A stretch of DNA of 36,388 bases, taken from contig NZ_JAEHHL010000014.1 in NCBI RefSeq assembly GCF_016623495.1, positions 1 through 36,388 of the forward strand, read 5' to 3'. The stretch comes from Thermohalobaculum xanthum. Its GTDB lineage: Bacteria; Pseudomonadota; Alphaproteobacteria; Rhodobacterales; Rhodobacteraceae. Under the pieces are notes generated by a model. The model was not told the origin of the DNA. It did no database searches and was given only the letters and a program-made list of their open reading frames with translations. Position numbers and translations under genes: made by a program. The stretch's first letter is position 1. Every line of letters starts with the position of its first letter. Below are positions 963 through 30,183 of this stretch, in pieces.

Positions 963-2083
963 GCGTCCTCGACCGCATAGGCATAGAGGCGCGCAAGCGC
1001 GGTGGCCGCCGCCGCGCGCTCGGCCGGCGCCAGCGCCATGTCGTTCGCGTCGGCCATCAGCGCCTCGGCCGCCTGCCGCAGCGCGCCGCCACGGTCGATG
1101 GCGTCGAGGTCGTCCGCCTCGGGCTCGATCGCAAGCCCGTCCTCGCGGAACTCGAAATAGGCGAAATCGGGTGCCGCCTCGTCGGCCGCGGCGGCCAGCG
1201 CGGTGCGTCCGGCCAGGCGCGCATGCCCCTCCGCCTCGAGCCGCAGCAGCGTGCGGCGGCGCTCGGCCATTGCCGGCAAGGCGGCGTCGAGCCGCGCGCG
1301 GGGGTCCTCGGCCGGCAGCAGTGCCAGGCGGATCCGCCGCCACGAGAAGGTCCCGGTCTCGACCGGCGCGACCTCGGGCGTGGCGCCGGGACCCGCGATC
1401 GAAACCGCCAGCGCCCGCCCCGGCGCGTCGTGCTTGAAGCGGTCGGGCTCGGGCGTGCCGCAATACCAGGTGCGCGGCCCGATGCGGATCTGCCCGTGCC
1501 AATCGCCCAGCGCGAGGTAATCGAGGCCCGCCGTCTCGGCCCGGTCGGGGGCGATCGTGTCGGCGGCGCCCTCCTCGCCGAAGTCCTGCACGGCGCCATG
1601 GGCAAGGCCGATGCGCAGCGCGCCCTCGGGCGTCGCGGCGGCGTCCATCCATGCCGTCAGATCGCGCCCGGGGCGGCGCGTGGTGCAGGGCGCGGGCAGG
1701 AGCACGACGCCGGGCCCAAGCTCGACCGGCGCGGGCGCGGTCGCCAGTGTCACATTCTGCGGCGCCCGGTGCGCCATCTCGGCCCAAAGCTCGTCCGCGG
1801 CCAGCGCGTCGTGGTTGCCAGGCAGCAGCACCCAGCGCAGCGCCGGGTCGGCGGCCATCTCGGCCAGCGCCTGGCGCAGGGTCGCGGGCGCCGGCGTCGC
1901 GGTGTCGAACACGTCTCCCGCGACGAGGATGACTTCGGCCCCCGCATTGCGCGCGGCATCGGCAAGCCGCGCCAGCGCGCCGCGCCGGGCCGCGCTCAGC
2001 TGCCCGCGGAACTCCTCGGGCATCTGCCCGAAGCGCTTGCCAAGATGCAGGTCGGAACTGTGGAGGAAACGGAACATCGTCAT
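959..2083 (-). CDS. SbcD/YhaO-like metallophosphoesterase (DNA repair exonuclease subunit)
   Basis: A 374-residue protein with the calcineurin-like metallophosphoesterase motifs in the order used by SbcD/Mre11: SDLHLG (Asp11, His13), VAGDVFDT (Asp57), GNHD (Asn90, His91), LAHG (His162) and GDWHG (His196). The C-terminal 150 residues are Ala/Glu-rich and helical-looking, resembling the capping or partner-binding region of the YhaO/SbcD family. It precedes and overlaps by 4 bp an AAA ATPase with SbcC/YhaN character, the usual nuclease-ATPase pairing. Family knowledge: Mn-dependent nuclease acting on DNA ends or hairpins in the cytoplasm. The alternative, a stand-alone phosphodiesterase, is unlikely given the partner. 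I give no symbol because YhaO and SbcD cannot be separated by eye. Confidence 0.88.
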   Translation of the reverse strand: MTMFRFLHSSDLHLGKRFGQMPEEFRGQLSAARRGALARLADAARNAGAEVILVAGDVFDTATPAPATLRQALAEMAADPALRWVLLPGNHDALAADELWAEMAHRAPQNVTLATAPAPVELGPGVVLLPAPCTTRRPGRDLTAWMDAAATPEGALRIGLAHGAVQDFGEEGAADTIAPDRAETAGLDYLALGDWHGQIRIGPRTWYCGTPEPDRFKHDAPGRALAVSIAGPGATPEVAPVETGTFSWRRIRLALLPAEDPRARLDAALPAMAERRRTLLRLEAEGHARLAGRTALAAAADEAAPDFAYFEFREDGLAIEPEADDLDAIDRGGALRQAAEALMADANDMALAPAERAAAATALARLYAYAVEDA

Positions 2084-2156
2084 CCGGAAACGGCGTCGTC
2101 GCCCCGACTAAAGCGCGAAAGACGCAAGTCTTCAAGCGCTGCGCCCCGCCCGCGCA

Positions 2157-2187
2157 TTGACACTCCGGTGCTGCGCGGCCCTAACAT
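2157..2187 (+). promoter_or_regulatory. Candidate sigma-70 promoter of the amidoligase cassette
   Basis: A perfect TTGACA lies at 2157-2162. The best -10 is TAACAT at 2182-2187 (19-bp spacer); CTAACA one base earlier gives 18 bp. It sits in the 133-bp gap between the divergent phosphoesterase gene and the cassette, about 30 bp before the ATG at 2217. A GGAGG ribosome-binding site follows at 2204-2208. The -35 is strong and the -10 weak, so this is a reasonable but unproven call. Confidence 0.42.
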
Positions 2188-2216
2188 ATTGCAACGCAGC
2201 ATCGGAGGCCGGCCGA

Positions 2217-5200
2217 ATGAGCATCAACGCCGCGATCACGCATCGCACGACCTATCGGTACGACCGCCGCATCACCCTTGGCCCCCAGGTCATCCGCCTG
2301 CGCCCCGCGCCGCATTCGCGCACCAAGATCCTCGCCTTCAGCCAGAAGATCTCGCCCGAGCCGCATTTCATCAACTGGCAGCAGGACCCGTTCGGCAACT
2401 ACCTCGCCCGCGTCGTCTTTCCCGAGAAGGTCGAGAGCTTCGAGGTGGTGGTCGACCTGGTCGCCGACATGGCGGCGGTGAACCCCTTCGACTTCTTCCT
2501 CGAGGACAGCGCTTCCCACGTGCCGTTCTCCTACCAGGACGAGGTGAAGAAGGACCTCGCCCCCTATCTCGAGACCGCGCCGCACGGCCCGCGCTTCGAG
2601 GCGATGCTGGCCGGGATCCCGCGCGAGCGGATGCACACCGTCGATTTCCTGGTCGAGGTCAACCGCCATGTGCAACAGGCCGTCGGCTACACGATCCGCA
2701 TGGAGCCGGGTGTCCAGACGCCCGAGGAGACGCTGCAGAAGGCCACCGGGTCGTGCCGCGACTCGGGGTGGCTGCTCGTCCACCTGCTGCGCCGGCTCGG
2801 GCTCGCCGCGCGCTTCGTGTCGGGTTACCTGATCCAGCTGACTCCCGACGTGAAGGCCGTCGACGGCCCCAGCGGGCCCGAGGCCGACTTCACCGACCTG
2901 CACGCCTGGTGCGAGGTCTACGTCCCCGGCGCGGGCTGGATCGGGCTCGACCCGACCTCGGGGCTCTTCGCCGGCGAGGGGCACATCCCGCTCGCCGCGA
3001 CCCCCTCGCCCAAGTCGGCGGCGCCGATCTCGGGCGTGCTCGAGAAATGCGAGGTCAGCTTCGATCACCAGATGGAGGTGCGGCGCGTGCGCGAGGAGCC
3101 GCGCGTCACCCTGCCCTTCACCGACGAGCACTGGGCGCGCATCGACGCCGCCGGGCACGAGGTCGACCGGATGCTGGACGAGGGCGACGTGCGCCTGACC
3201 ATGGGCGGCGAGCCGACCTTCGTCTCGGCTCATGACCGCGACGCGGACGAATGGAACACGGCCGCCGTGGGCCCGACCAAGCGCGACTATGCCGACCGGC
3301 TGATCCGCCGCCTCCGCGATGCCTTCGCGCCCGGCGGCGTGCTGCATTACGGCCAGGGCAAGTGGTATCCGGGCGAGCAGCTTCCGCGCTGGGCCTTCGC
3401 CCTCTACTGGCGGCGCGACGGCGTGCCCCTGTGGCACGATCCCGAACTGATCGCCACCGAGCGCCGGCAGGACGCGACCATCGCGGATGCCGAGCGCTTC
3501 GCTGGCGCGCTGGCCGAGGCGCTCGAGCTCCCGCGCGAGGCGGCCGAGCCGGCATGGGAGGATCCGATCACCTACGTGCTGCAGGAGCACCGCCTGCCCC
3601 AGAACCTCGACCCGGCGAACAACCGGCTCGAAGACCCGCTCGAGCGCCGCCAGATGGCACAGGCCTTCGAGCGCGGCCTGGGCACGCCCACCTGCATCGT
3701 CATCCCGTGCCAGCTTGCGATGAGCCAGGCCGCCGACGGGCCGCGGAACCGCCGGATCCATCGCTGGGCGACCGAGAAATGGAAGACCCGGCGCGGGCGG
3801 CTCTACCTCGCACCGGGCGACAGCGCCGCGGGCTACCGCCTGCCGCTGACCTCGCTGCCTTTCCTCGGCGAGGGCGACTATCCCTTCCTGTTCCAGCGCG
3901 ACCCCTTCGCGCAGCGTCCGCCGCTTCCGGTCTCGACACTCAGGATGCAGCCGCGCGACGAGGCGGCCGGTGTTCCGCCCGGCCCGCAGGCCGAGCGCCC
4001 GGGCGAGGCCGCGCGCTATTGGGACCGCCCGTCGGACCGCCCCGCCTCGGGCGCCGGTGGGGCCTGGGTGAACGTGACTGCGTCTGCCACGCCGCACGAC
4101 CCCGCCCGCGCGATCCACACCGAATATGTCCGGACCGCCGTGACGGTCGAGCCGCGCGACGGCAAGCTTTGCGTCTTCATGCCCCCCGTGCCCAATGCCG
4201 AGTCCTATGTCGACCTGATCGCCGCGGTCGAGGAGGCCGCGGCCGCGACGGGCCAGCCGGTCCATCTCGACGGCTACTCGCCGCCTTGGGACCCGCGCCT
4301 CAATGTCATCAAGGCGACGCCCGACCCGGGGGTGATCGAGGTGAACATCCAGCCCGCCACCAGCTGGGAGGAGCAGTGCCGGATCACCGAGACGCTCTAT
4401 GACGCCGCGCGGCACGAGGGGCTCGACACGGTGAAGTTCATGCATGACGGGCGCATGGTGGGCTCGGGCGGCGGTAACCACATCGTGGTCGGTGGCGCCA
4501 GCGCCGAGGACAGCCCCTTCCTGCGCCGCCCCGACCTGCTGGCGAGCCTGATCCGCTACTGGCAGCGCCACCCGTCGCTCAGCTACCTGTTCTCGGGCGT
4601 GTTCATCGGGCCCACCAGCCAGGCGCCCCGGATCGACGAGGCGCGGCAGGACGTGCTCTACGAGCTCGAGATCGCGCTCGGCCAGATCCCCGGACCCGAC
4701 GGCGCGCCGCCGCCTTGGCTGGTGGACCGGATCCTGCGCGACCTGATGACCGACCTGACCGGCAACACGCACCGGGCCGAGATCTGCATCGACAAGCTCT
4801 ACTCGCCCGACGGGCCGACCGGTCGGCTGGGCCTGGTCGAGTTCCGCGCCTTCGAGATGCCGCCGCATCCGCGCATGGCGATGGCCCAGTCGCTGGTGCT
4901 GCGCGCGCTGATCGCCTGGTTCTGGCGCCGGCCCTACGACCTGCCGCCGGTCCGCTGGGGCACGGCGCTGCACGACCGCTTCATGCTGCCCCACTACGTC
5001 TGGGAGGATTTCCTCGACGTACTCGCCGACCTCTCGGGCGGGCTCGGCATCCATTTCGACCCGGAATGGTTCAAGGCGCAGTTCGAATTCCGCTTCCCTC
5101 TGCTGGGCGATGTTGCGCGCCGGGGCGTCAAGCTCGAACTGCGCGCCGCGCTCGAACCCTGGCACGTGCTGGGCGAAACCGGGGCCATCGGTGGCACGGC

Positions 5201-5636
5201 GCGCTATGTCGACAGCTCGCTAGAACGCGTGCAGCTCAGGGTCGACGGCGACCTCGCCGGCCGCTACAAGCTGCTGTGCAACGGCTGGGACGTGCCGCTG
5301 ACCGCGACCGATCGCGCCGACGAGCATGTCGCGGGCGTGCGCTTCCGGGCCTGGCGCCCGGCGCAATGCCTGCATCCGACCATCGACGTGCACGCGCCGC
5401 TGACGTTCGACCTGTGGGATACCTGGTCGGCGCGGTCGCTGGGCGGCTGCGTCTATCACGTGGCGCATCCCGGCGGGCGCAGTTTCGAGACCCAGCCGGT
5501 CAACGATCTCGAGGCCGAGGGCCGTCGCATGGCGCGATTCGAATCGATCGGCCACAGTCCGGGACGAATCAGCCCCATGACGCCGAGAAAGAGCCCCGAG
5601 TTTCCACTGACGCTGGACCTCAGGCGCCAGTATTGA
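2217..5636 (+). CDS. Transglutaminase-like domain fused to DUF2126 putative amidoligase
   Basis: A 1139-residue protein. The frame is open further upstream, but ATG 2217 is chosen for its GGAGG (2204-2208) and because the family's N-terminal strand ([13 protein letters not shown]) follows at once. Residues 1-80 resemble the bacterial transglutaminase N-terminal domain. Residues 140-250 are a transglutaminase-like core with an apparently complete triad: Cys180 in TGSCRDSGW, His229 in LHAWCEV, Asp245 in GLDPTSG. From about residue 310 to the end the protein matches DUF2126, which the literature classes as a putative amidoligase related to glutamine synthetase-fold enzymes; the [12 protein letters not shown] stretch near residue 755 resembles their active-site glycine-rich motif. 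Known of the family: predicted ATP-dependent amide-bond ligase coupled to a thiol peptidase-like domain; substrate unknown. First gene of a tight cassette with the ATP-grasp/alpha-E fusion and a second transglutaminase. Confidence 0.9.
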
Positions 5637-5681
5637 GAGAATCAACGCCGCCCGGTGGATGGCGGGCCCAGGGGGTGAGGA

Positions 5682-8228
5682 ATGATGGCCGAGGGCGCTC
5701 GGGCCGCGGGAGCGAGTGGTGACGCCGGTCTGCGGCCGCCCGCGCCGCCATACAAGGCCGCCGCGGACAGGCATGACGAGGCCGTCGACGCGACAGGCCG
5801 CGTGCGGACGCACTGGGAGCGGCTCGCGGGCTGGCTTGCCGAGGCCGGCCCCCCCGTGATCGACGCCATCGCGAGCGAATTGGGCCGGCTGCGCGACGAA
5901 TCGGGCATCGCCTTCACCGCGCGCACGGTGGCCGCGCCGGGCGCGGTCGATCCGCTGCCGGTGGTTCTCTCCGCTTCGGACTGGGCGACGCTCGAGCGCG
6001 GGCTCGCGCAGCGCGCGCGGCTGGCCGAGGCCGTGATCGCCGATCTCTACGGGCCGCGCTGCACGATCCGCGAGGGGCTGCTTCCGCCCGGCGTCGTGTT
6101 CGGCTCGGACGCCTTCGCCGCGCATGCCGCGGGCTGGGAGAAGCCGCCCGAGCGCTTCACCCTGGTGTTCGAGGCCGATGTCGCACGCGGCGCGGACGGG
6201 CGCTGGATGATCCTCGCCGACCGTCTCGACGCGCCGCTGGGCGATGGCTGGCTGATCGCCAACCGCATCGCCACCAGCCAGGCCATCGCCGAGCCCTTCA
6301 TCGATTGCGGCGCGCGCCGCATCGCGAGCCATTTCGCGCGTTTCCAGGACCTGCTCGACAGCCTCACCGGTTGGGAGGGGCGGCTGGCCCTTCTTACGGG
6401 GGGCGAGCGCGACCCACGCTATTTCAGCCATGCGTACCTGGCGCGCTATCTCAACGCGACGCTGGTCGAGCCCGCCGATCTCACGGTGCGCGACGGCGCC
6501 GCCTTCGTGAAGACCCTCGACGGACTGAAGAAGGTCGACGTGCTGCTGCGCGGCGTGCCCGACCGTCGGATCGACGCGCTGCACCGGCCGCGCAGTGCTG
6601 CGCCCGGCGCGCCCGCCCTGACCGTTGCCGCCCGCGCGGGCGGGCTGGTGATGGGCAACGCGATCGGCACCGCGGCGATGGCTTACCGCGCCCTCGCGCC
6701 CTACGCGCACCGGCTCTGCGAGCGGCTGCTGGGCGAGCCGCTCGAGATCCCCGACGCGCCCTGCCTCTGGCTGGGCGACCCGGCGGCGCGCGCCCAGGTG
6801 CTCGAGGAGCTGCCCTTCTGGCGGATCGAGCCGCTGACCGGCGGCGCCAGCCCCGATGCCGCGCCGCTCCTGCCCGAGGACCCCTCGGCGATGACAGGTG
6901 CCGAGCGCGACCGGCTCGCCGTCGCGCTCGAGCGCGTGGGCGAGCGCTTCGCCGCCGTGGCGACCCCGCCGCTCGCCACCACGCCCGCCTGGTGCGCCAA
7001 CGGCCTCGAGCCGCGCGAGTGGATGATGCGCGTCTTCGCAAGCTGGGCGGGCGAAAGCTGGTCCGTCGCGCCGGGCGGGGTTGCCGCCACGGTCGAGCCC
7101 GGCTGCCCGCCGCCCGCACTCGGCTTCGGCAAGGACGTCTGGGTCCTGCCTGATCCCGGCAGCGCGGCGAAGGACGAGGCCGCAAGCCTCCTGGCCGCGC
7201 GCCTCGCGGGCGGGCATCTGCGCCGCACCGGGCGCGAGCTTCTGAGCCGCGTGGCCGACGAGGTGTTCTGGCTTGGCCGCAATGCCGAGCGCGCCGAGTC
7301 GGTGCTGCGCATCCTCAATGTCTGCCTGCAGCGCTACCTTTCGGGCAACCGGATCGACGCCGATCCCGCGGCGCTGACGACGCTCCTGTCGGTGCATGCC
7401 CGCGAGGACGACCGCGCGCCTGCGCCGGCCCGCCTGCGCGAGACGCTGGTACGGCTGATCGGCGACCCGGACGAGCCCGAGGGGCTCGCGCCCACGCTGG
7501 CGCATCTGCGTTCGGGCGCGGCTCGCGCGCGGCTGTCGATCTCCGAGGAAAGCTGGCGCTACATCGACCGGCTCTGCGCCGATCCGCGCTGGCGCGGGCG
7601 GCTCGATTTCCGCGCCTCGGGCGAGATCGCGCGGTTGATCGAGGACGCCCTGCGCAGCCTCGCGGCCTTCGCCGGATCGGCCCAGGAAAACCTGACCCGG
7701 AACTTCGCCTGGCGCTTCCTCGAGATGGGCCGCCGGATCGAGCGCGGCAGCCAGATCGCCCGCATCGTGGGCCGCATCGCCGGCCGCGAGCGCGAGAACG
7801 AGGAAAGCTTCCTGCGCGCGCTGCTGACCTATTCGGATTCCGCCGCGGCCTATCGCGCGCGCTACATGATGGTGCCGACGCCGGCGGCGGTGATGGACCT
7901 GCTGATCCTCGACGAGACCAACCCCCGCAGCCTCGGCTTCCAGCTCGCCCAGCTCGAGCAGGTGCTGTCGATGCTGCCCTCCGAGACGCCCTACCGCCGG
8001 CCCGAGCACCGCCGCGCCCTCGCTCTGCTGACCGAGGTGCGGCTGACCGAGGCAGACGCCGTGGCCGCCACCGACGCGAACGGCGCGCGCCCGGCGCTTG
8101 GCGCGCTCATGTCCCGCTGCCGCAGCGAGCTTGCCGAGGTCTCGGACACGCTCGCGCGCGCCTATTTCGCGCATGCCGAGGCGCCGGTCGCGCTGATGAG
8201 CCAGGGCCGCCTGGGCGAGACGCCATGA
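5682..8228 (+). CDS. Circularly permuted ATP-grasp domain fused to alpha-E (DUF403) domain
   Basis: An 848-residue protein made of two parts usually encoded as neighbours (COG2308 and COG2307). Residues 50-460 look like the circularly permuted ATP-grasp type 2 family: ADLYGPR near 125, a VFEADVARGADGRWMIL stretch near 165-180, and GNAIGTAAMAYRALAPY near 325. The last segment aligns with the family's (N)P(L/I)GxGV...P site but lacks its usual GxGV pattern. Residues 510-830 are the alpha-helical alpha-E domain, starting LLSRVADEVFWLGRNAERAE. Two ATGs lie at 5682 and 5685; GTGAGG (5675-5680) is better spaced for 5685, so the true start may be one codon in. The TGA overlaps the next gene's ATG (ATGA, 8225-8228). 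Inference: a ligase forming amide bonds on a peptide or small acceptor, with alpha-E as an accessory module. Confidence 0.88.
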   Translation: MMAEGARAAGASGDAGLRPPAPPYKAAADRHDEAVDATGRVRTHWERLAGWLAEAGPPVIDAIASELGRLRDESGIAFTARTVAAPGAVDPLPVVLSASDWATLERGLAQRARLAEAVIADLYGPRCTIREGLLPPGVVFGSDAFAAHAAGWEKPPERFTLVFEADVARGADGRWMILADRLDAPLGDGWLIANRIATSQAIAEPFIDCGARRIASHFARFQDLLDSLTGWEGRLALLTGGERDPRYFSHAYLARYLNATLVEPADLTVRDGAAFVKTLDGLKKVDVLLRGVPDRRIDALHRPRSAAPGAPALTVAARAGGLVMGNAIGTAAMAYRALAPYAHRLCERLLGEPLEIPDAPCLWLGDPAARAQVLEELPFWRIEPLTGGASPDAAPLLPEDPSAMTGAERDRLAVALERVGERFAAVATPPLATTPAWCANGLEPREWMMRVFASWAGESWSVAPGGVAATVEPGCPPPALGFGKDVWVLPDPGSAAKDEAASLLAARLAGGHLRRTGRELLSRVADEVFWLGRNAERAESVLRILNVCLQRYLSGNRIDADPAALTTLLSVHAREDDRAPAPARLRETLVRLIGDPDEPEGLAPTLAHLRSGAARARLSISEESWRYIDRLCADPRWRGRLDFRASGEIARLIEDALRSLAAFAGSAQENLTRNFAWRFLEMGRRIERGSQIARIVGRIAGRERENEESFLRALLTYSDSAAAYRARYMMVPTPAAVMDLLILDETNPRSLGFQLAQLEQVLSMLPSETPYRRPEHRRALALLTEVRLTEADAVAATDANGARPALGALMSRCRSELAEVSDTLARAYFAHAEAPVALMSQGRLGETP

Positions 8229-9106
8229 TCTACGATGTCACCCACCGCACGGTTTACGACTATGTCGAGAGCGCGGCCTTCTCGCAGCACCTCCTGCGGC
8301 TGACGCCGCGTGACACCAATGGTCAGCGCGTCCTCTCGAGCCGCATCTCCCTCGACCCGCGCCCGGACGAGATCGTCCTCGAGCGCGACATGTTCGGCAA
8401 TCTCGCCCATGCCGCGACCGTGAGCCGGCCCCACGGGCGGTTCGAGATCGTCGCGATCAGCCGCGTCGAGCGCCAGTCGCCGTCCGCGTTCATCTTCGAG
8501 GCGTCGAGCCCTTGGGAGGACGTCCGCGCCATCGCGACCGGCGCGGCCGCGGGCCCGGTGCCCGACGATGTCGCACCCTTCGCCTTTCCCACCGCGCTCA
8601 CGACGGCAAACGAGGAGATCGAGGACTGGGCGCGCGACTGCTTCGCGCCCGGCCGCCCGGTGCTGGCCGCGGCGGCCGCTCTCTCGGCCCGGATCCATGC
8701 CGAGTTCGACTACGTGCCCGGCGCGACCGCCGCCGACACGCTGCCGGCCGAGAGCTTCGCGGCGCGGCGCGGCGTGTGCCAGGACTTCGCCCATGTCATG
8801 CTGGCCGCGCTGCGCGCCCGCCGGCTGCCCGCGCGCTACGTCTCGGGCTATCTGCGAACCATCCCCCCGGCGGGGCAGCCCCGGCTTGCCGGGGCCGATG
8901 CCAGCCATGCCTGGGTGGCGGTGTGGGACCCGGCGCTCGACTGGGTCGAGTTCGATCCGACCAACAACATGATCCCGGGCGAGGACCACATCACCCTTGC
9001 CTGGGGCCGCGACTACTCGGATGTCAGCCCGGTCTCGGGCATCGTGGTGGGTGCGGGCGCGCAGAGCCTGCATGTCGGGGTTGACGTCATGCCCGCAGGT
9101 GGGTGA
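8225..9106 (+). CDS. Transglutaminase-like cysteine peptidase family protein
   Basis: A 293-residue protein starting at an ATG that overlaps the stop of the ATP-grasp/alpha-E gene (ATGA), so translational coupling is likely. Residues 1-100 match the bacterial transglutaminase N-terminal beta domain (start MIYDVTHRTVYDY). The catalytic core follows with an intact triad: Cys185 in RRGVCQDFAH, His228 in DASHAWVAV, Asp244 in VEFDPTNN. No signal peptide or membrane segment is seen, so it should be cytoplasmic. Proteins of this kind regularly accompany COG2308/COG2307 genes. In bacteria the fold more often hydrolyses or transfers peptide amide bonds than crosslinks proteins. It shares the fold and triad of the N-terminal part of the 2217 gene product but lacks the DUF2126 ligase part. 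The exact reaction is unknown. Confidence 0.9.
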   Translation: MIYDVTHRTVYDYVESAAFSQHLLRLTPRDTNGQRVLSSRISLDPRPDEIVLERDMFGNLAHAATVSRPHGRFEIVAISRVERQSPSAFIFEASSPWEDVRAIATGAAAGPVPDDVAPFAFPTALTTANEEIEDWARDCFAPGRPVLAAAAALSARIHAEFDYVPGATAADTLPAESFAARRGVCQDFAHVMLAALRARRLPARYVSGYLRTIPPAGQPRLAGADASHAWVAVWDPALDWVEFDPTNNMIPGEDHITLAWGRDYSDVSPVSGIVVGAGAQSLHVGVDVMPAGG

Positions 9107-9157
9107 AGGGTTCAGGGTTCCGCCGCGGCCCGGCGGCGCTGTCCAAGGTTACCCGCC

Positions 9158-10069
9158 ATGTCTGCCGGTCTCATCGCCGCCCCCGCCACCGGCGCGCGTC
9201 CAGCGCTGCTTTGGGTGGCGATGCTTGGCATTGGCGCCGCCTGGGGCTCGACCCAGCTCCTGGCGAAGATCGGCATGGCGGCAGGACATCATCCGGTCGG
9301 GGTCACCTTCTGGCAGGCGCTGATCGGGCTTGTCATCCTCACCATCGCGATGCGCCTGACCGGCCGGCGCCTGCCGCTCGGGCGCAGGCATCTTGCCTTC
9401 TACGCGGTCTGCGGCTTGCTCGGCACGGCGCTGCCCTCGACCCTCAGCTACGAGGGGATCAGGCATCTGCCGGTCGGCGTCCAGTCGATCGTGCTCTCGA
9501 CCGTGCCGATGATGACGCTGGTGCTGGCGCTGCCGCTTCGGATCGAGCGGGCCGAGCCGCTGCGCGTGCTCGGCCTCGGCCTCGGGTTGGCCGCCATGCT
9601 GCTGCTGGTCGGCCCCGAGGCGAGCCTGCCCGACCCCTCACAGGCGGCCTGGGTGGTGCTACCGGTGCTGGTCGCGCTTTCGTATTCGGCCGAGAACGTG
9701 GTGATCGCGCGATGGATGCCGCCCGGAACGGACCCGGTGCAGGCGATGTGCGGCCTGCTGCTGGCGGCGACGCTCATGGTGGCCCCGACCATGCTGGCGC
9801 TGGGCGCCACCCCCGACCTGTCGGATTTCGGCTGGCGCGAAGGGGCGCTGCTTGCCTCGGCGGTGCTGAATGTCGGCTGCTATCTCGGCTTCGTCTGGCT
9901 GATCGCCAATGGCGGCGCGGTCTTCGCCGCGCAGACCGCCTACGTGGTCACCGGCTCGGGCGTGGCACTCGGCATGATGGTCCTGGGCGAGCGCCATTCG
10001 CCCTGGGTCTGGGCGGCGCTCGGGCTTCTGTTCGCGGGGCTCGCGCTGGTCAGGCCACGGCGGGCCTGA
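9158..10069 (+). CDS. EamA/DMT-family drug-metabolite transporter
   Basis: A 303-residue, strongly hydrophobic protein with about ten predicted transmembrane segments in two repeats, the pattern of the EamA (DUF6, RhaT/YdcZ) branch of the drug/metabolite transporter superfamily. The first helix contains [17 protein letters not shown], the usual start of an EamA repeat. The second repeat begins near residue 165 ([20 protein letters not shown]) and ends with the typical [24 protein letters not shown]. It lies in the inner membrane and probably exports a small metabolite; the substrate cannot be read from sequence. It follows the transglutaminase gene by 51 bp on the same strand, so read-through from the amidoligase cassette is possible, but a functional link is only a guess. 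Its 3' end overlaps the convergent ubiG gene by 20 bp. Confidence 0.88.
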
Positions 10070-10799
10070 CCGCGGCGGTCACGTAGTTCACCGACAGGTC
10101 GCGCTCCGAGACGCGCCAGCTCCATGTCAGCGGGTTGAACTGGAAGCCCTTGCGGTCGACCGGGGTGAGGCCGGACTTGCCGATCATGTCGAATAGCTCG
10201 TCGGGCGTGATGAACTTGCGCCAGTCATGGGTGCCGCGCGGCAGCCAGCGCATCACCTGTTCGGCGCCGACGATGGCCATCATGTAGCTCTTGGGATTGC
10301 GGTTGATGGTCGAGCAGATCATGATCCCGCCGGGCTTCACCAGCGCCGAGCAGGCGTCGAGATAGGCCTGCGGGTCGGGCACATGCTCGACCACCTCCAT
10401 GTTCAGAACCGCATCGAAGCTCTCGCCCGCCTCGACCAGGGCCTCGGCCGTGGACACGCGGTAGTCGATATCGAGCTCCATGCGCGCGGCGTGGATGCGG
10501 GCCACGGGGATGTTGCGCTCGGCGGGGTCGACGCCGGTGACGCGGGCACCCAGGCGCGCCATCGGCTCGGCCAGCAGGCCGCCGCCGCAGCCGATGTCGA
10601 GGATCGAGAGCCCCTCGAACGGGCGCCGTGCCGCCGGGTCGCGGCCATGCTGGGCCGCGATCTGGTCGACGGCATAGCCCAGCCGGCAGGGGTTCAGCAT
10701 GTGCAGCGGGCGGAACTTGCCGTTCGGGTCCCACCACTCGTCGGCGATCGCCTCGAACTTGGCGACCTCGGCGGAATCGACGCTTGCGCCCTGTGCCAT
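10050..10799 (-). CDS. ubiG: Ubiquinone biosynthesis O-methyltransferase UbiG
   Basis: A 249-residue class I SAM-dependent methyltransferase. The SAM-binding motif I is [13 protein letters not shown] (about residues 67-79), followed by GVDPAERN as the acidic end of strand 2 and [10 protein letters not shown] as the post-motif characteristic of UbiG. The N-terminal [19 protein letters not shown] stretch is specific to the UbiG/Coq3 family, and the C-terminal [14 protein letters not shown] is also typical. Reaction (family knowledge): both O-methylations of the ubiquinone ring, at the 2-polyprenyl-6-hydroxyphenol and 3-demethylubiquinol steps. Start ATG at 10799 has GGGAGG about eight bases upstream. 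Its end overlaps the convergent transporter gene by 20 bp. Confidence 0.95.
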
Positions 10800-10924
10800 G
10801 TTGCGCCCTCCCTTTTCAGCTTGCCTTGCATGGGCTCACCGGCTGACATAGGTCAAACCTGCGTTCGCCGCCACGGGGGTCGGCGGCTGCGTCCGATCGC
10901 CACGGCCCAGGGAGCTGTCGCCGC

Positions 10925-11899
10925 GTGAACATCCGCCAGCGAACGCCTGACGAGACCCGGCTCTACACACCGGTCGAGCCGCATACCCGGTTCCACCTCG
11001 ACGTCGGCGACGGGCATTCGATCTATGTCGAGATCTCGGGGCTCAGGCAGGGCCCCACCGCGATCGTGCTGCATGGCGGGCCCGGCGCCGGGTCGAGCCC
11101 CTTCATGCGCCGCTTCTTCGACCCGGAGCGCTGGCGCGTGGTGATGTTCGACCAACGCGGTGCGGGCCGCTCGCGTCCGCATGGCGGGCTCGAGATGAAC
11201 ACCACCTGGCATCTCGTGCAGGACATCGAGGCGATCCGCGCGCATCTGGGGGTCGAGAGCTGGCTCGCCTTCGGCGGCTCGTGGGGCTCGACGCTTGCGC
11301 TGCTTTACGCCCAGACCCATCCTGGGCGCGTCACCGGGCTGGTGCTGCGTGGCATCTTCACCCTGACGCGGCGCGAGCTCGACTGGTTCTATGGCGGCGG
11401 CGCAGCGCGCTTCTTCCCCGAGGCCTGGGAGGACTTTATCCAGCCGATCCCGCCAACCGAGCGCGGCGACCTGATCGCGGCCTATCACCGCCGGCTGACA
11501 GGCCCGAGCGAGGCCGAGCAGCTGCGCTTCGCGCGCCCCTGGGTGCGGTGGGAGACGGCGACCGCCGCGCTTCGCCCGGTCAATGCGGGCTTCGTCGATG
11601 GCGCCTATGCCCGTGCCTTCGCGCGGATCGAGTGCCATTACTTCCAGCATGGCGGCTGGCTCGAGGACGACCGCCAGATCCATACGCGCATGGATCGCAT
11701 CGCCGATGTGCCCGGCGTCGTTGTCCAGGGCCGCTACGACATGATCTGTCCGCCCGCCACCGCGGTCGAGCTGGTGCGCGCATGGCCCGCGGCGGGGCTG
11801 CGCATCGTCGACGATGCCGGTCATGCGCTGTCCGAGCCCGGGATCTCGGCGGAGCTGGTGCGCGCCACCAACCGTTTTTCGATGACCGCCCACGACTGA
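10925..11899 (+). CDS. pip: Proline iminopeptidase (alpha/beta hydrolase, S33)
   Basis: A 324-residue alpha/beta hydrolase matching bacterial prolyl aminopeptidase throughout: LYTPVEPHTRFHLDVGDGH at the N-terminus, oxyanion motif HGGPG (residues 50-54), DQRGAGRS (76-83), nucleophile motif GGSWGS with Ser119, then an Asp in VQGRYDMICP and His in DDAGHALSEP completing the triad. It removes N-terminal proline from peptides in the cytoplasm (family knowledge). The start is a GTG at 10925 preceded by GGAG at 10911-10914; no in-frame ATG is closer and the family N-terminus is complete from here. It diverges from ubiG, with 125 bp between them. Confidence 0.93.
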   Translation: MNIRQRTPDETRLYTPVEPHTRFHLDVGDGHSIYVEISGLRQGPTAIVLHGGPGAGSSPFMRRFFDPERWRVVMFDQRGAGRSRPHGGLEMNTTWHLVQDIEAIRAHLGVESWLAFGGSWGSTLALLYAQTHPGRVTGLVLRGIFTLTRRELDWFYGGGAARFFPEAWEDFIQPIPPTERGDLIAAYHRRLTGPSEAEQLRFARPWVRWETATAALRPVNAGFVDGAYARAFARIECHYFQHGGWLEDDRQIHTRMDRIADVPGVVVQGRYDMICPPATAVELVRAWPAAGLRIVDDAGHALSEPGISAELVRATNRFSMTAHD

Positions 11900-11947: not shown

Positions 11948-13939
11948 TCACGCGAAGTCGAAACCCTCCAACCCGGCATCGGGCATGATCTGCCATGGCG
12001 CCTCGTACGCCGGACCGTCGCCGGGGCTGCTGGCAAACAGCGCCCACGGGCCACCCGTCCCCGGGTCGCGCGCCGCAAGCCCCGGCGAGGCGGCGTCCCC
12101 GCCCGGCGCGGACCAGGGGCCGGCGCTCGGGTCGCCGAAGTCGAAGTGATCGGCGAGGCGCGCGCGAAGCCCGGCGGCGCGGCTATCCGCAGGCTCCGCT
12201 ATGTCGTCTCCCGCGCTCGGTTTGCTCGCCATCAGTGCGCGCTGCTCGGCCGTCAGGATTTCGTTCGCGGCGATCATCTCGTGTGGTCCGCGCAGCTCGG
12301 GCGTCGTCGCCGGGTCGTTGTCGACCTCCTCCGGCGGAGGCGGCGAAGCGGCCGCGACCGGCGCCGTCACGAGGGCGCTCTCCACGCTGACGGCGGTGCT
12401 GACGCGCGCGAGTTCGATCCTGCCGTCGATCGTGCCGTCGAGCGCGTCAAGCGCGGCGAGGATGCCGGGGCCGCCATGGACGAGGTAGACCGCGCCCGTA
12501 TCCACCCGCGCGCCGTCATTCGCGAGGTCCGCGCCGATCAGCAGGTCGTTCCAGCCGTCGCCATTGATATCGCCCGCCGCGGCGACGGTGATGCCTGCCG
12601 CGTCGAAGCTGCCCGCGCCGAGGAAGAGATAGCCCTGCCCGGGCGCGACGCTGTCCGCGGACACCACCGCGCCAGGGCCGCTCTCTGAGCCGAACAGCAA
12701 GAGGGCCCCGCCGGGGGCGATCCGGCCGGGCGCGGGCGCGCGCGGGATGCCGACCAGCAGATCGTCGAAGCCGTCGCCATTGACGTCGCCCACGCCGGCG
12801 ACCGAGGTGCCAAGATCCCCGCCGTCGGCGGCGCCGTCGATCCGGAAACCCGCCGCGCCATCGAGCGCGCCGAGGTCGATGGCGGCGGCAAGGCCGTCCC
12901 GCCGCCCGAACACGACATAGGCCGAGCCCCGCCCGTTCGCCGCCTCGGGCGCGCCGATGATGACGTCGTCGATACCGTCGCCGTTCACGTCGCCTGCGGC
13001 TGCGACCGACACGCCGGCCAGGTCGCCCGAGACCGCGCCGCGCAGCACGACGCCATCGCCTGCCGCGAGCGTGCCGAGGTCGATATCGGCCTGCCACCCG
13101 CCGTCGCGGCCGAACACGATGTAGGCGGCGCCCGACTGCGCCGCGGCCCCGTTCGCCTCGGGCGCGCCGATCAGCAGGTCGTCGATCCCGTCGCCGTTGA
13201 AATCCCCCGCCGACGAGAGAGCGGCCCCGGCGGCATCGAGCGCGGCGCCGCCGATGATCCGAAGCCCGCCGCCGCCCGTGTCGAGATCGCGGTCGCCGCT
13301 GCCCCCGAGCCGCAACTCGACGACACCGGCGCCGAAGCGCGTGCCGACGCTCGCGCCGGGCAGGCCGATGGCCGAGTCGGCCCGGCCGTCGCCGTCGATA
13401 TCGCCCACCATCGCGACGGAAAAGCCCGCATAGGACCGAAGCGTGCCGCCGTTCATCTCCTGCGAGACGCTGCCGGTTCCGGGGGCGCCGCTGCTCCACC
13501 CCTCGAGCGCCGCGGCGCCGCCGAATACGGCGAAGGCGCTGCCGGCGTCGACGCCGGCGCCGTGGTCGCGGAACGGCGCGCCGATCAGCAGGTCGCCGAA
13601 GCCATCGCCGTCGATGTCGCCGCCGCCCGCCACGGCCGCGCCCACACGGCCATGCGCCTGCGAGCCCTCGAACACGGTGACGCGCGGGTCGCCGGCCGCC
13701 GTGGCCAGGCGCAGCGCGGGCGCGAAGCCGCCCGGACCGCCGCGCAGCAGCACGGCCTCGCCCACCGAGGCCGAGACCAGCACGCCGCCCGCGTCGCGCA
13801 CCGAGGCGCCCGGGGCGCCGAGGATCAGGTCGGCCCAGCCGTCGCCATCGACATCACCCGCGACCGAGATGGCATAGCCCAGCTGTGCCCCCTCGCTGCG
13901 GCCGAAGAATACGCATCCGCTCTGGACGATCTCGGCCAT
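11948..13939 (-). CDS. FG-GAP repeat (integrin-alpha-like beta-propeller) protein
   Basis: A 663-residue protein whose first 500 residues contain seven FG-GAP/calcium-loop repeats of the form G-D-(V/I/F)-(D/N)-G-D-G-x-x-D-L-(L/I)-(I/L)-G-x-P, near residues 29-42, 108-121, 180-193, 246-259, 317-330, 385-398 and 457-470. Seven repeats fit one closed seven-bladed propeller like the integrin alpha head, with a DxDxDG-type Ca2+ loop in most blades. No N-terminal signal peptide is visible. The last 160 residues are Pro/Ala/Gly-rich and acidic and end in LEGFDFA, an acidic-hydrophobic tail of the kind seen on type I secretion substrates, so one-step export is plausible but inferred. ATG 13939 has GGGGAG closely upstream. 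No dedicated ABC/MFP exporter genes are adjacent. Function unknown; adhesion or surface binding is the usual guess. Confidence 0.87.
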   Translation of the reverse strand: MAEIVQSGCVFFGRSEGAQLGYAISVAGDVDGDGWADLILGAPGASVRDAGGVLVSASVGEAVLLRGGPGGFAPALRLATAAGDPRVTVFEGSQAHGRVGAAVAGGGDIDGDGFGDLLIGAPFRDHGAGVDAGSAFAVFGGAAALEGWSSGAPGTGSVSQEMNGGTLRSYAGFSVAMVGDIDGDGRADSAIGLPGASVGTRFGAGVVELRLGGSGDRDLDTGGGGLRIIGGAALDAAGAALSSAGDFNGDGIDDLLIGAPEANGAAAQSGAAYIVFGRDGGWQADIDLGTLAAGDGVVLRGAVSGDLAGVSVAAAGDVNGDGIDDVIIGAPEAANGRGSAYVVFGRRDGLAAAIDLGALDGAAGFRIDGAADGGDLGTSVAGVGDVNGDGFDDLLVGIPRAPAPGRIAPGGALLLFGSESGPGAVVSADSVAPGQGYLFLGAGSFDAAGITVAAAGDINGDGWNDLLIGADLANDGARVDTGAVYLVHGGPGILAALDALDGTIDGRIELARVSTAVSVESALVTAPVAAASPPPPEEVDNDPATTPELRGPHEMIAANEILTAEQRALMASKPSAGDDIAEPADSRAAGLRARLADHFDFGDPSAGPWSAPGGDAASPGLAARDPGTGGPWALFASSPGDGPAYEAPWQIMPDAGLEGFDFA

Positions 13940-17262: not shown

Positions 17263-17979
17263 CGATCACCTTGTCCGGGAGCCGCGAGGCCCCTTCTTCC
17301 GTCAATTTACCCGAAGCCCGCGCGGGGACCCGTGCTTCCTCGTCCGTCACAGGAGGGGTGCGGAAACCCGCGAGCCGCCCTGCCTCGATCAGGGCACGAT
17401 CCGCGATGCCGCCGGCGTCGAGCGCCGCATGTATCGCAAAATCACGCCCAAAAGCCAAACCCAATTCCCCGCTGTCGAGGAGGTCGATCCGCCCGGCATG
17501 GTCGGGCGCGATCCGCGCAAGCTTGGCGCGTCCGTCGGCGGCCGCGTCCGAGGCCGTCACCAGCACCCCGACCCTGCCTTCGCCAAGGCGCGCGCGGACC
17601 TTCTCGAAGCCCGCTACCGCCTGCCCCGCCTTGCGCGCAAGCGCGACCAGGTCGACCAGCCGCCGCGCGATAAGCGCCTCGAGCTGGTCCGCGAGGTCCG
17701 GCGCGACCCTGACCGGCCGGCGGAAGGCGCGGGCGAAGAGGTTCTTCTTCAGCGCCTTCGCGACGGCCGCTCGGTCGGCGCTCAGCCAAGCGCCGCGGCC
17801 CGGCAGCTTGCCCGCGAGGTCCGGCACGACGCTGTCGTCGGGGCCGAGGACGAAGCGGATCAGCGGCCCGGTCGGGCCGCTTTCGCCGCTGGCGATGCAG
17901 CGGCGCTCGGGCGCGTCATGCGCCCAGCCTCGCCCGCCGCGGGTCATCGCCTTGTCTCCATCCTCGACCACCGTCAGAC

Positions 17980-17983
<4 letters not shown>
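17252..17983 (-). CDS. YlxR (DUF448/RnpM)-L7Ae-like fusion RNA-binding protein
   Basis: A 243-residue protein joining two small RNA-binding folds. Residues 15-95 are the YlxR/DUF448 domain: [25 protein letters not shown], then [12 protein letters not shown] and a Lys/Phe-rich KKNLFARAF helix. Residues 105-200 resemble YlxQ/ribosomal L7Ae: [21 protein letters not shown] and [18 protein letters not shown]. In Firmicutes these are separate genes between nusA and infB; the fused form is common in alphaproteobacteria. The start is GTG 17983, which overlaps the nusA TGA (GTGA), and the stop lies inside infB, so all three genes are tightly coupled. YlxR has been linked to RNase P modulation in Firmicutes; whether that holds here is unknown. 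Confidence 0.9.
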
Positions 17984-19632
<1,649 letters not shown>

Positions 19633-30106: not shown

Positions 30107-30183
30107 GACCCCGTAGCTCAGCAGGATAGAGCGGTCGCCTCCTAAGCGACAGGTCACAGGTTCGAATCCTGTCGGGGTCGCCA
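30107..30183 (+). tRNA. tRNA-Arg (anticodon CCT), CCA encoded
   Basis: A full cloverleaf can be drawn: acceptor GACCCCG/CGGGGTC (30107-30113/30173-30179), D stem GCTC/GAGC, anticodon stem GTCGC/GCGAC with loop CTCCTAA (anticodon CCT at 30141-30143), T stem ACAGG/CCTGT with loop TTCGAAT, discriminator G and CCA at 30181-30183. Reads AGG codons, which are rare in such GC-rich genomes. DNA composition and gene content change just past its 3' end. Confidence 0.97.

Follow-up and report, generated by a model that had tools for sequence, protein, structure and literature searches.

A candidate DUF2126 module of the Anbu/transglutaminase/ATP-grasp/Alpha-E system in Thermohalobaculum xanthum carries a predicted pseudo-ligase

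Contig NZ_JAEHHL010000014.1 of the alphaproteobacterium Thermohalobaculum xanthum carries a three-gene cassette encoding a transglutaminase-fold domain fused to DUF2126 (gene 1), a circularly permuted ATP-grasp domain fused to Alpha-E (gene 2) and a stand-alone transglutaminase-fold protein (gene 3). The stretch analyzed, referred to as the window, is this entire contig of 36,388 bp, one of 33 in a 4.05-Mb genome. Our preferred explanation, held with modest confidence, sees in the cassette a DUF2126 module belonging to the Anbu/transglutaminase/ATP-grasp/Alpha-E system and engaged in amide synthesis or remodelling linked to nitrogen limitation. The cassette is widespread and made of known families; the sequences suggest re-reading it as a part of the Anbu system that includes a conserved pseudo-ligase and has nitrogen-stress-type promoters in relatives from other classes.

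We distinguish the classical operon with a separate Alpha-E gene (type I) from the kind found in the window (type II), where Alpha-E ends a frame of approximately 800–900 residues. The T. xanthum genome (G000) has both. Its type I operon (L047, G000:C28) lies on another contig and encodes ATP-grasp, Alpha-E, transglutaminase and Anbu proteins of 468, 309, 273 and 246 residues, respectively. The 246-residue protein matches crystallised Anbu sequences with E-values of 1.2e-58 to 6.6e-76. Because the Pfam model PF00227 misses this protein (18.7 bits, below the cut-off of 22.4), the absence of a PF00227 match was not used as evidence. No Anbu or other Ntn peptidase was found in the window, and the classical set—Anbu with separate ATP-grasp, Alpha-E and transglutaminase genes—is present at L047 and absent from the window. 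The preliminary description of this DNA was correct that the cassette has no proteasome-like Ntn peptidase as a neighbour, but a full Anbu operon is encoded elsewhere in the same genome. Judged by sequence, the type II cassette is built of paralogues of that type I operon.

The association extends to other genomes. Alpha-E was detected in 37 of 61 genomes (T. xanthum and 60 relatives), including all 18 that carry DUF2126. A phylum sample of 299 genomes contains Alpha-E in 171 and DUF2126 in 92, and every one of these 92 also has Alpha-E (Fisher p 1.9e-29, kinship ignored). Counting Alpha-E copies regardless of type, 83 of the 92 genomes have two, 3 have three and 6 have one; among the 207 genomes without DUF2126, Alpha-E occurs in 79, as one copy in 68. 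The earlier view of a stand-alone cassette is given up on these grounds, together with the presence of the Anbu operon.

Of the named DUF2126 loci (80, kept as the best of 587), 74 contain the fused ATP-grasp/Alpha-E gene in whole or in part and 70 contain the second transglutaminase gene; five of the ten loci lacking the latter end at a contig edge (L063, L070, L081, L085, L086). The preliminary description had staked its reading on the genes occurring together in other genomes, and they do so widely, in the same order. In three more of these ten (L053, L064, L082) a divergent Anbu/Alpha-E/ATP-grasp set adjoins DUF2126, and neither a fused gene nor a separate transglutaminase gene was detected; the L053 sequence ends 2.1 kb downstream. 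In the last two, L079 and L128, no fused gene or second transglutaminase was found in the 10 kb downstream of the transglutaminase-DUF2126 gene. Alpha-E lies within 12 kb of DUF2126 in 28 of the 83 genomes for which both best places are listed. A type I ATP-grasp gene falls inside the same named locus in 9/80 cases and Anbu in 4/80, and the two types are adjacent in L041, L043 and L076. In loci L094 (Burkholderia), L121 and L124 (Pelomonas) and L129 and L130 (Marinobacter), the type I ATP-grasp and Alpha-E genes continue into type II on a single strand. The run in Burkholderia cenocepacia comprises six genes: ATP-grasp, Alpha-E, transglutaminase, transglutaminase-DUF2126, fused protein and transglutaminase.

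Gene 2 looks like a conserved pseudo-ligase, its ATP-grasp domain predicted to be catalytically dead. The domains are recognized by Pfam (PF14403 (CP_ATPgrasp_2) and PF04174 with 300 and 179 bits, Alpha-E PF04168 with 216 bits), and the ATP-grasp fold is kept, as indicated by the Foldseek match to 3n6x, itself a type I sequence (E 9.9e-25, TMt 0.82). We aligned 86 type II ATP-grasp domains with 35 of type I, of which 17 are full and 18 partial. The glutamate of the E-x-N motif is present in 35/35 type I versus 1/86 type II domains, and the asparagine in 34/35 versus 0/86, its place being taken by arginine in 76/86 type II domains. The motif lysine occurs in 34/35 versus 13/86, and the two loop glycines in 35/35 each versus 5/86 and 7/86. 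Eight chosen residues are all present in 34/35 type I domains, whereas type II domains have between one and five of them. The window protein reads A179-D-R181 where the sister ATP-grasp of its own genome has E-D-N, and the glycine loop is absent. Enzymes of the glutathione synthetase and glutathionylspermidine synthetase type (3n6x, 2hgs, 2io7) share the fold of the N-terminal part of gene 2, but gene 2 lacks the E-x-N, lysine and glycine loop that serve as metal (Mg) and phosphate ligands in these two synthetases. Thirteen positions switch between a conserved type I and a conserved type II residue, as in N156 -> R181. The comparison of the window with a same-genus locus (L032) gives a dN/dS of 0.16 for the ATP-grasp part, which is under purifying selection and not in decay, and 0.22 for Alpha-E. 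Within Alpha-E, the conserved ER pair consists of the nearly invariant E536 and the invariant R537 (49 aligned proteins). The Burkholderia fused protein reaches 461 bits with the Pfam ATP-grasp model, yet it has lost the E and N too, while keeping one lysine. The single type I domain without all eight residues belongs to an Anbu operon of a relative (L039 of G018, 5745-10168), where the separate ATP-grasp lacks the N and Lys and keeps the E; this is apparently a second, distinct pseudo-ATP-grasp. No pseudo-ATP-grasp in this system was noticed in the literature searched, and Iyer et al. (2009) may describe one.

These residues bear directly on the idea that the cassette works alone in peptide synthesis or tagging, with DUF2126 and ATP-grasp as two active ligases and the transglutaminases as cross-linkers. 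We regard this as very improbable: both families are amidoligase/ATP-grasp members by Pfam and the ATP-grasp fold is retained, but the fused protein is without E-x-N, lysine and glycine loop, DUF2126 is always accompanied by Alpha-E in our samples, usually in two copies, and an Anbu operon resides in the same genome. Of the two kinds of amide-bond ligase proposed in the preliminary description, both stand as domain families, but the gene 2 ATP-grasp has lost its motifs. This loss leaves DUF2126 as the one plausible ATP-dependent ligase of the cassette.

DUF2126 is full length in gene 1, matching PF09899 over profile positions 1-826 of 826 with 1263 bits against a cut-off of 27, behind an N-terminal transglutaminase-fold domain (PF08379 and PF01841). 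The latter spans residues 6-246 and DUF2126 residues 276-1136. DUF2126 is reportedly an amidoligase family (Iyer et al. 2009), and no paper using the name was found within the literature searched. The residues invariant in all 49 aligned proteins include E332, K382, E708, N710, H755, E875 and R877. Gene 1 shares with the DUF2126 amidoligases (PF09899) the full-length domain, its conserved residues and the N-terminal transglutaminase domain, with no difference at the domain level. The triad Cys180/His229/Asp245 is invariant in 49/49 proteins of one alignment and, residue by residue, in 93/93 of another. Gene 3 (PF08379 and PF01841) has its triad cysteine and histidine in 84/84 relatives and the aspartate in 83/84, with one gap. 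The Cys-His-Asp triads of the two predicted transglutaminase-fold thiol enzymes are intact in both window proteins and in type II relatives. The dN/dS between the window and L032 is 0.16 for DUF2126 and 0.20 for gene 3. A plasmid collection includes 186 records with relatives of gene 1, and in 25 of them at least 80% of the query is covered; several of those listed are megaplasmid- or chromosome-sized replicons. In one relative (L038 of G016, 8372-11338) the transglutaminase-DUF2126 gene is split over three overlapping frames and is either broken or mis-sequenced.

Regions upstream of gene 1 were scanned for sigma-54-like elements, allowing at most two mismatches and requiring an intact core. 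The loci comprise 17 from other classes (16 beta/gamma and one Verrucomicrobiota) and 63 that are nearly all alphaproteobacterial. An element precedes type II in 12 of the 17 other-class loci, at a position of 51–69 bases in 11 of the 12. The controls from the same loci gave 12/185 for the upstream regions of other open reading frames (ORFs), 2/17 for the reverse strand and an expectation of 0.26 from shuffles, where each control ORF was given its farthest-upstream start codon and the shuffling preserved base composition only. In 5 of the 17 loci type I lies directly upstream, and type II may need no promoter of its own there. NtrC-like palindromes are found in 9/17 of these loci versus 0.72 expected. 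A second sample of hand-picked other-class genomes (20 type II and 20 type I), whose species may overlap with the first, yielded sigma-54-like elements in 14/20 type II (0.35 expected) and 13/20 type I regions (0.28 expected), and NtrC-like sites in 9/20 and 7/20, respectively. A stricter first scan permitting one mismatch found 5/93 type II regions versus 0.22 expected. Near the first gene of the six-gene B. cenocepacia run lie a sigma-54-like site (4383) and an NtrC-like palindrome (4304), each with one mismatch; as the most upstream possible start of that gene is 4335, its real start is assumed to lie further on.

Expression data have been published for relatives. The B. cenocepacia ntrC mutant table lists I35_5080-5083 as strongly lowered, with values of -8.2, -9.4, -9.4 and -6.0, and the four genes are common to the NtrC-dependent set and the sigma-54 regulon; they are given as DUF404/407 (5080), DUF403 (5081) and transglutaminase-like (5082 and 5083), the last described as a 'large protein' (PMC5491218). 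This order fits the six-gene run, and for that reason I35_5083 is very likely its DUF2126 gene. Wild-type Pseudomonas putida raises PP_2686-2688 about 11-15-fold under nitrogen limitation, with PP_2685 at 1.1-fold (PMC7801951), and PP_2685 and PP_2688 are higher on nitrate versus ammonium (PMC8050072). These domains are associated with urea-metabolism domains in marine metagenomes (PMC3597751), and expression of the Anbu operon is unchanged under several other conditions (PMC5666114). The preliminary description had the compactness of the cassette right and missed this regulatory context, namely the sigma-54/NtrC-type sites of other-class relatives and the published NtrC dependence of a likely orthologue (PMC5491218).

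Nitrogen control would also suit salvage instead of synthesis, with transglutaminase-fold amidases or peptidases freeing nitrogen from peptides or amides when it is limiting and DUF2126 recycling the acyl part. Besides the NtrC-type sites and the reports of joint regulation with genes for urea and nitrate (PMC5491218, PMC7801951), this is consistent with the gene 1 model, whose best solved-structure match is 3isr, a putative cysteine protease. Pure hydrolysis, however, needs no ATP-dependent ligase, and no substrate transporter family emerged as a conserved neighbour beyond generic ABC ATPases; we consider salvage unlikely, at perhaps one chance in a few.

Several observations weigh against assigning the cassette to a nitrogen-controlled Anbu system. 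The window's own class has no clear enrichment of sigma-54 or NtrC sites: the 63 mainly alphaproteobacterial loci have 5 sigma-54-like elements versus 1.09 expected, and the alphaproteobacterial loci, the window and the type I sets together have 3/69 NtrC-like palindromes versus 2.58 expected. The combination of a -24/-12 element and an NtrC site, seen upstream in many other-class relatives, is missing from the window, where the best sigma-54 match has three mismatches. Its NtrC-like match, one of the three just counted (two mismatches, reached in 0/60 shuffles), sits 39 bases ahead of the ATG, nearer to the start than suits a usual enhancer. The stricter scan found 0/16 type I regions versus 0.1 expected, and one identical Pseudomonas-like element accounts for 5/12 and 6/14 positive type II rows of the two samples, which lowers the number of independent cases (7/12 and 8/14 without those rows). 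I35_5083 is very likely the DUF2126 orthologue, matched by order and description and not by its own sequence (PMC5491218). Loci L094, L121, L124, L129, L130 and L051 yielded no Anbu. Eleven genomes without DUF2126 carry two Alpha-E copies, and one (G048) has the fused gene without DUF2126. At the 13 switch positions the window protein has the type II residue in only 5, for which reason we treat it as a divergent type II member; its Pfam ATP-grasp score is in line with this divergence, at 300 bits where the sister type I protein reaches 540. In the ATP-grasp tree, types I and II separate with a support of only 0.53, too weak to infer a single origin. The DUF2126 model (pLDDT 74.5) finds glutamine synthetase entries weakly, from E 0.067 and probability 0.82. 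Finally, Yersinia Anbu is reported to form no specific complex with the proteins of its operon (PMC6376114).

Should the cassette nevertheless belong to the Anbu system as its DUF2126 module, DUF2126 would be the cassette's sole ATP-dependent carboxylate-amine ligase. The pseudo-ATP-grasp/Alpha-E protein would act as a non-catalytic subunit holding the substrate or a partner, which may be the active ATP-grasp/Alpha-E pair encoded by the sister operon, and the two transglutaminase-fold enzymes would form thioesters on the product and transfer or hydrolyse it. Under nitrogen limitation, the enzymes would jointly produce a small peptide-like amide and remodel it. One type I ATP-grasp is reported to release phosphate (PMC6376114). 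A bolder proposal, which we offer tentatively and hold to be doubtful, unites the Anbu operon with the DUF2126 cassette, throughout Pseudomonadota, in a single two-ligase pathway under NtrC control. Here the active ATP-grasp/Alpha-E pair and a dedicated pseudo-ATP-grasp/Alpha-E scaffold would pass an acyl chain to DUF2126 and the thioester-forming transglutaminase domains. In cells starved of nitrogen, this would build, and together with Anbu take apart, a protein tag or a peptide metabolite rich in nitrogen.

Two known operons are closest to this arrangement. The Anbu operon (PMC5666114, PMC6376114) shares three domain families, paralogous proteins and sigma-54/NtrC-type sites in other classes; unlike it, the cassette has no Anbu, has ATP-grasp and Alpha-E fused with the ATP-grasp residues lost, and has an extra transglutaminase-DUF2126 gene. 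The rlo operon of Pseudomonas aeruginosa (PMC12239564) has a similar logic of transglutaminase-fold, ATP-grasp and protease components with one inactive partner, but that partner is a membrane-bound transglutaminase, and the accessible part of the paper mentions neither DUF2126 nor Alpha-E.

The three genes are real ORFs (Table 1). ATG at 2217 is the best-fitting start of gene 1, although the frame is likewise open from a TTG at 2157. Genes 1 and 2 are spaced by 45 bases, and gene 3 starts inside the end of gene 2, the two sharing ATGA at 8225-8228. The compact layout given in the preliminary description is borne out, and the Pfam searches that it had proposed as a check assigned all of its domains: DUF2126, ATP-grasp, Alpha-E and transglutaminase. 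No sigma-70-type promoter was found at window positions 1800-10400.

Table 1. Coordinates of the cassette, its domains and the adjacent genes in the window
Feature	Position	Strand	Basis
Gene 1: transglutaminase-fold domain fused to DUF2126	2217..5636	+	ORF, Pfam
DUF2126 domain, putative glutamine-synthetase-like amidoligase	3042..5624	+	conserved residues, n=49 aligned proteins
Gene 2: fusion of circularly permuted ATP-grasp and Alpha-E	5682..8228	+	ORF, Pfam, Foldseek
Gene 2 ATP-grasp domain, predicted catalytically dead (pseudo-ligase)	5958..7085	+	motif alignment, dN/dS
Codons 179-181, A-D-R (E-D-N motif in separate paralogues)	6216..6224	+	alignment
Gene 2 Alpha-E domain	7239..8168	+	Pfam
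Gene 3: stand-alone transglutaminase-fold protein, intact Cys-His-Asp triad	8225..9106	+	ORF, Pfam
EamA transporter gene, 51 bases 3' of cassette, not counted in system	9158..10069	+	Pfam
SbcD-like gene, divergent, upstream of cassette	959-2083	minus	

We clustered 6892 flanking ORFs (at least 50 aa, within 10 kb) of the 80 named loci and examined the 25 widest clusters. The widest consists of ABC-transporter ATPases from 18 genera; the others span at most 8 genera, some without an assigned identity. No conserved small substrate gene was found among these flanking ORFs, a search that shorter peptides or genes more than 10 kb away would escape; to this extent the reported lack of a substrate-peptide gene is upheld. 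EamA was rejected as a conserved exporter; L032, the locus from the same genus, was the only one where a relative was found next to the cassette. The three cassette proteins matched 0 families of the anti-phage defence models (PADLOC) at E 0.01.

The neighbourhoods also bear on a pathway to a secreted or bioactive small molecule, an amide metabolite made independently of non-ribosomal peptide synthetases, as by the ATP-grasp ligase in E-64. The Foldseek match 9cjn is Cp1B, this very E-64 ATP-grasp (PMC12568646), and an antinematode clone from a metagenome appears in a review table with ATP-grasp, alpha-E, transglutaminase and protease as its genes (PMC7764037). The 25 widest clusters, however, contain no conserved neighbour for tailoring, export or resistance, the genes of the clone match the classical operon and not DUF2126, and in the cassette it is the Cp1B-like domain that has lost its motif; we give such a pathway little credence.

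Other neighbours were noted along the way. GlgB/GlgP-like genes (glycogen branching enzyme and phosphorylase, read by eye) lie downstream in Rhizobiaceae-type loci (L060, L062, L068, L069, L072, L073, L075, L083, L096, L099, L100, L105), probably through shared synteny. Downstream of the Marinobacter cassette in L129, the start of an ORF at 17638-18222 resembles ChaC-type gamma-glutamylcyclotransferases by eye. In the window, an FG-GAP repeat protein of 663 aa is encoded at 11948-13939 on the minus strand, and 14560-36172 are ordinary chromosomal surroundings with IF-2, NusA, DUF463 (YcjX-like), DUF697, an M48 peptidase, rhodanese and sulfatase, and a tRNA-Arg at 30107-30183.

The literature leaves open the substrate of the Anbu/ATP-grasp/Alpha-E/transglutaminase systems. 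Our results narrow the question: DUF2126, and not the fused ATP-grasp, is the prime ligase candidate, the two operons appear to belong together, and the relevant condition would be nitrogen limitation in an NtrC-proficient relative. If this explanation is true, a widespread nitrogen-stress metabolite or tag, the product of stand-alone ligases, awaits discovery.

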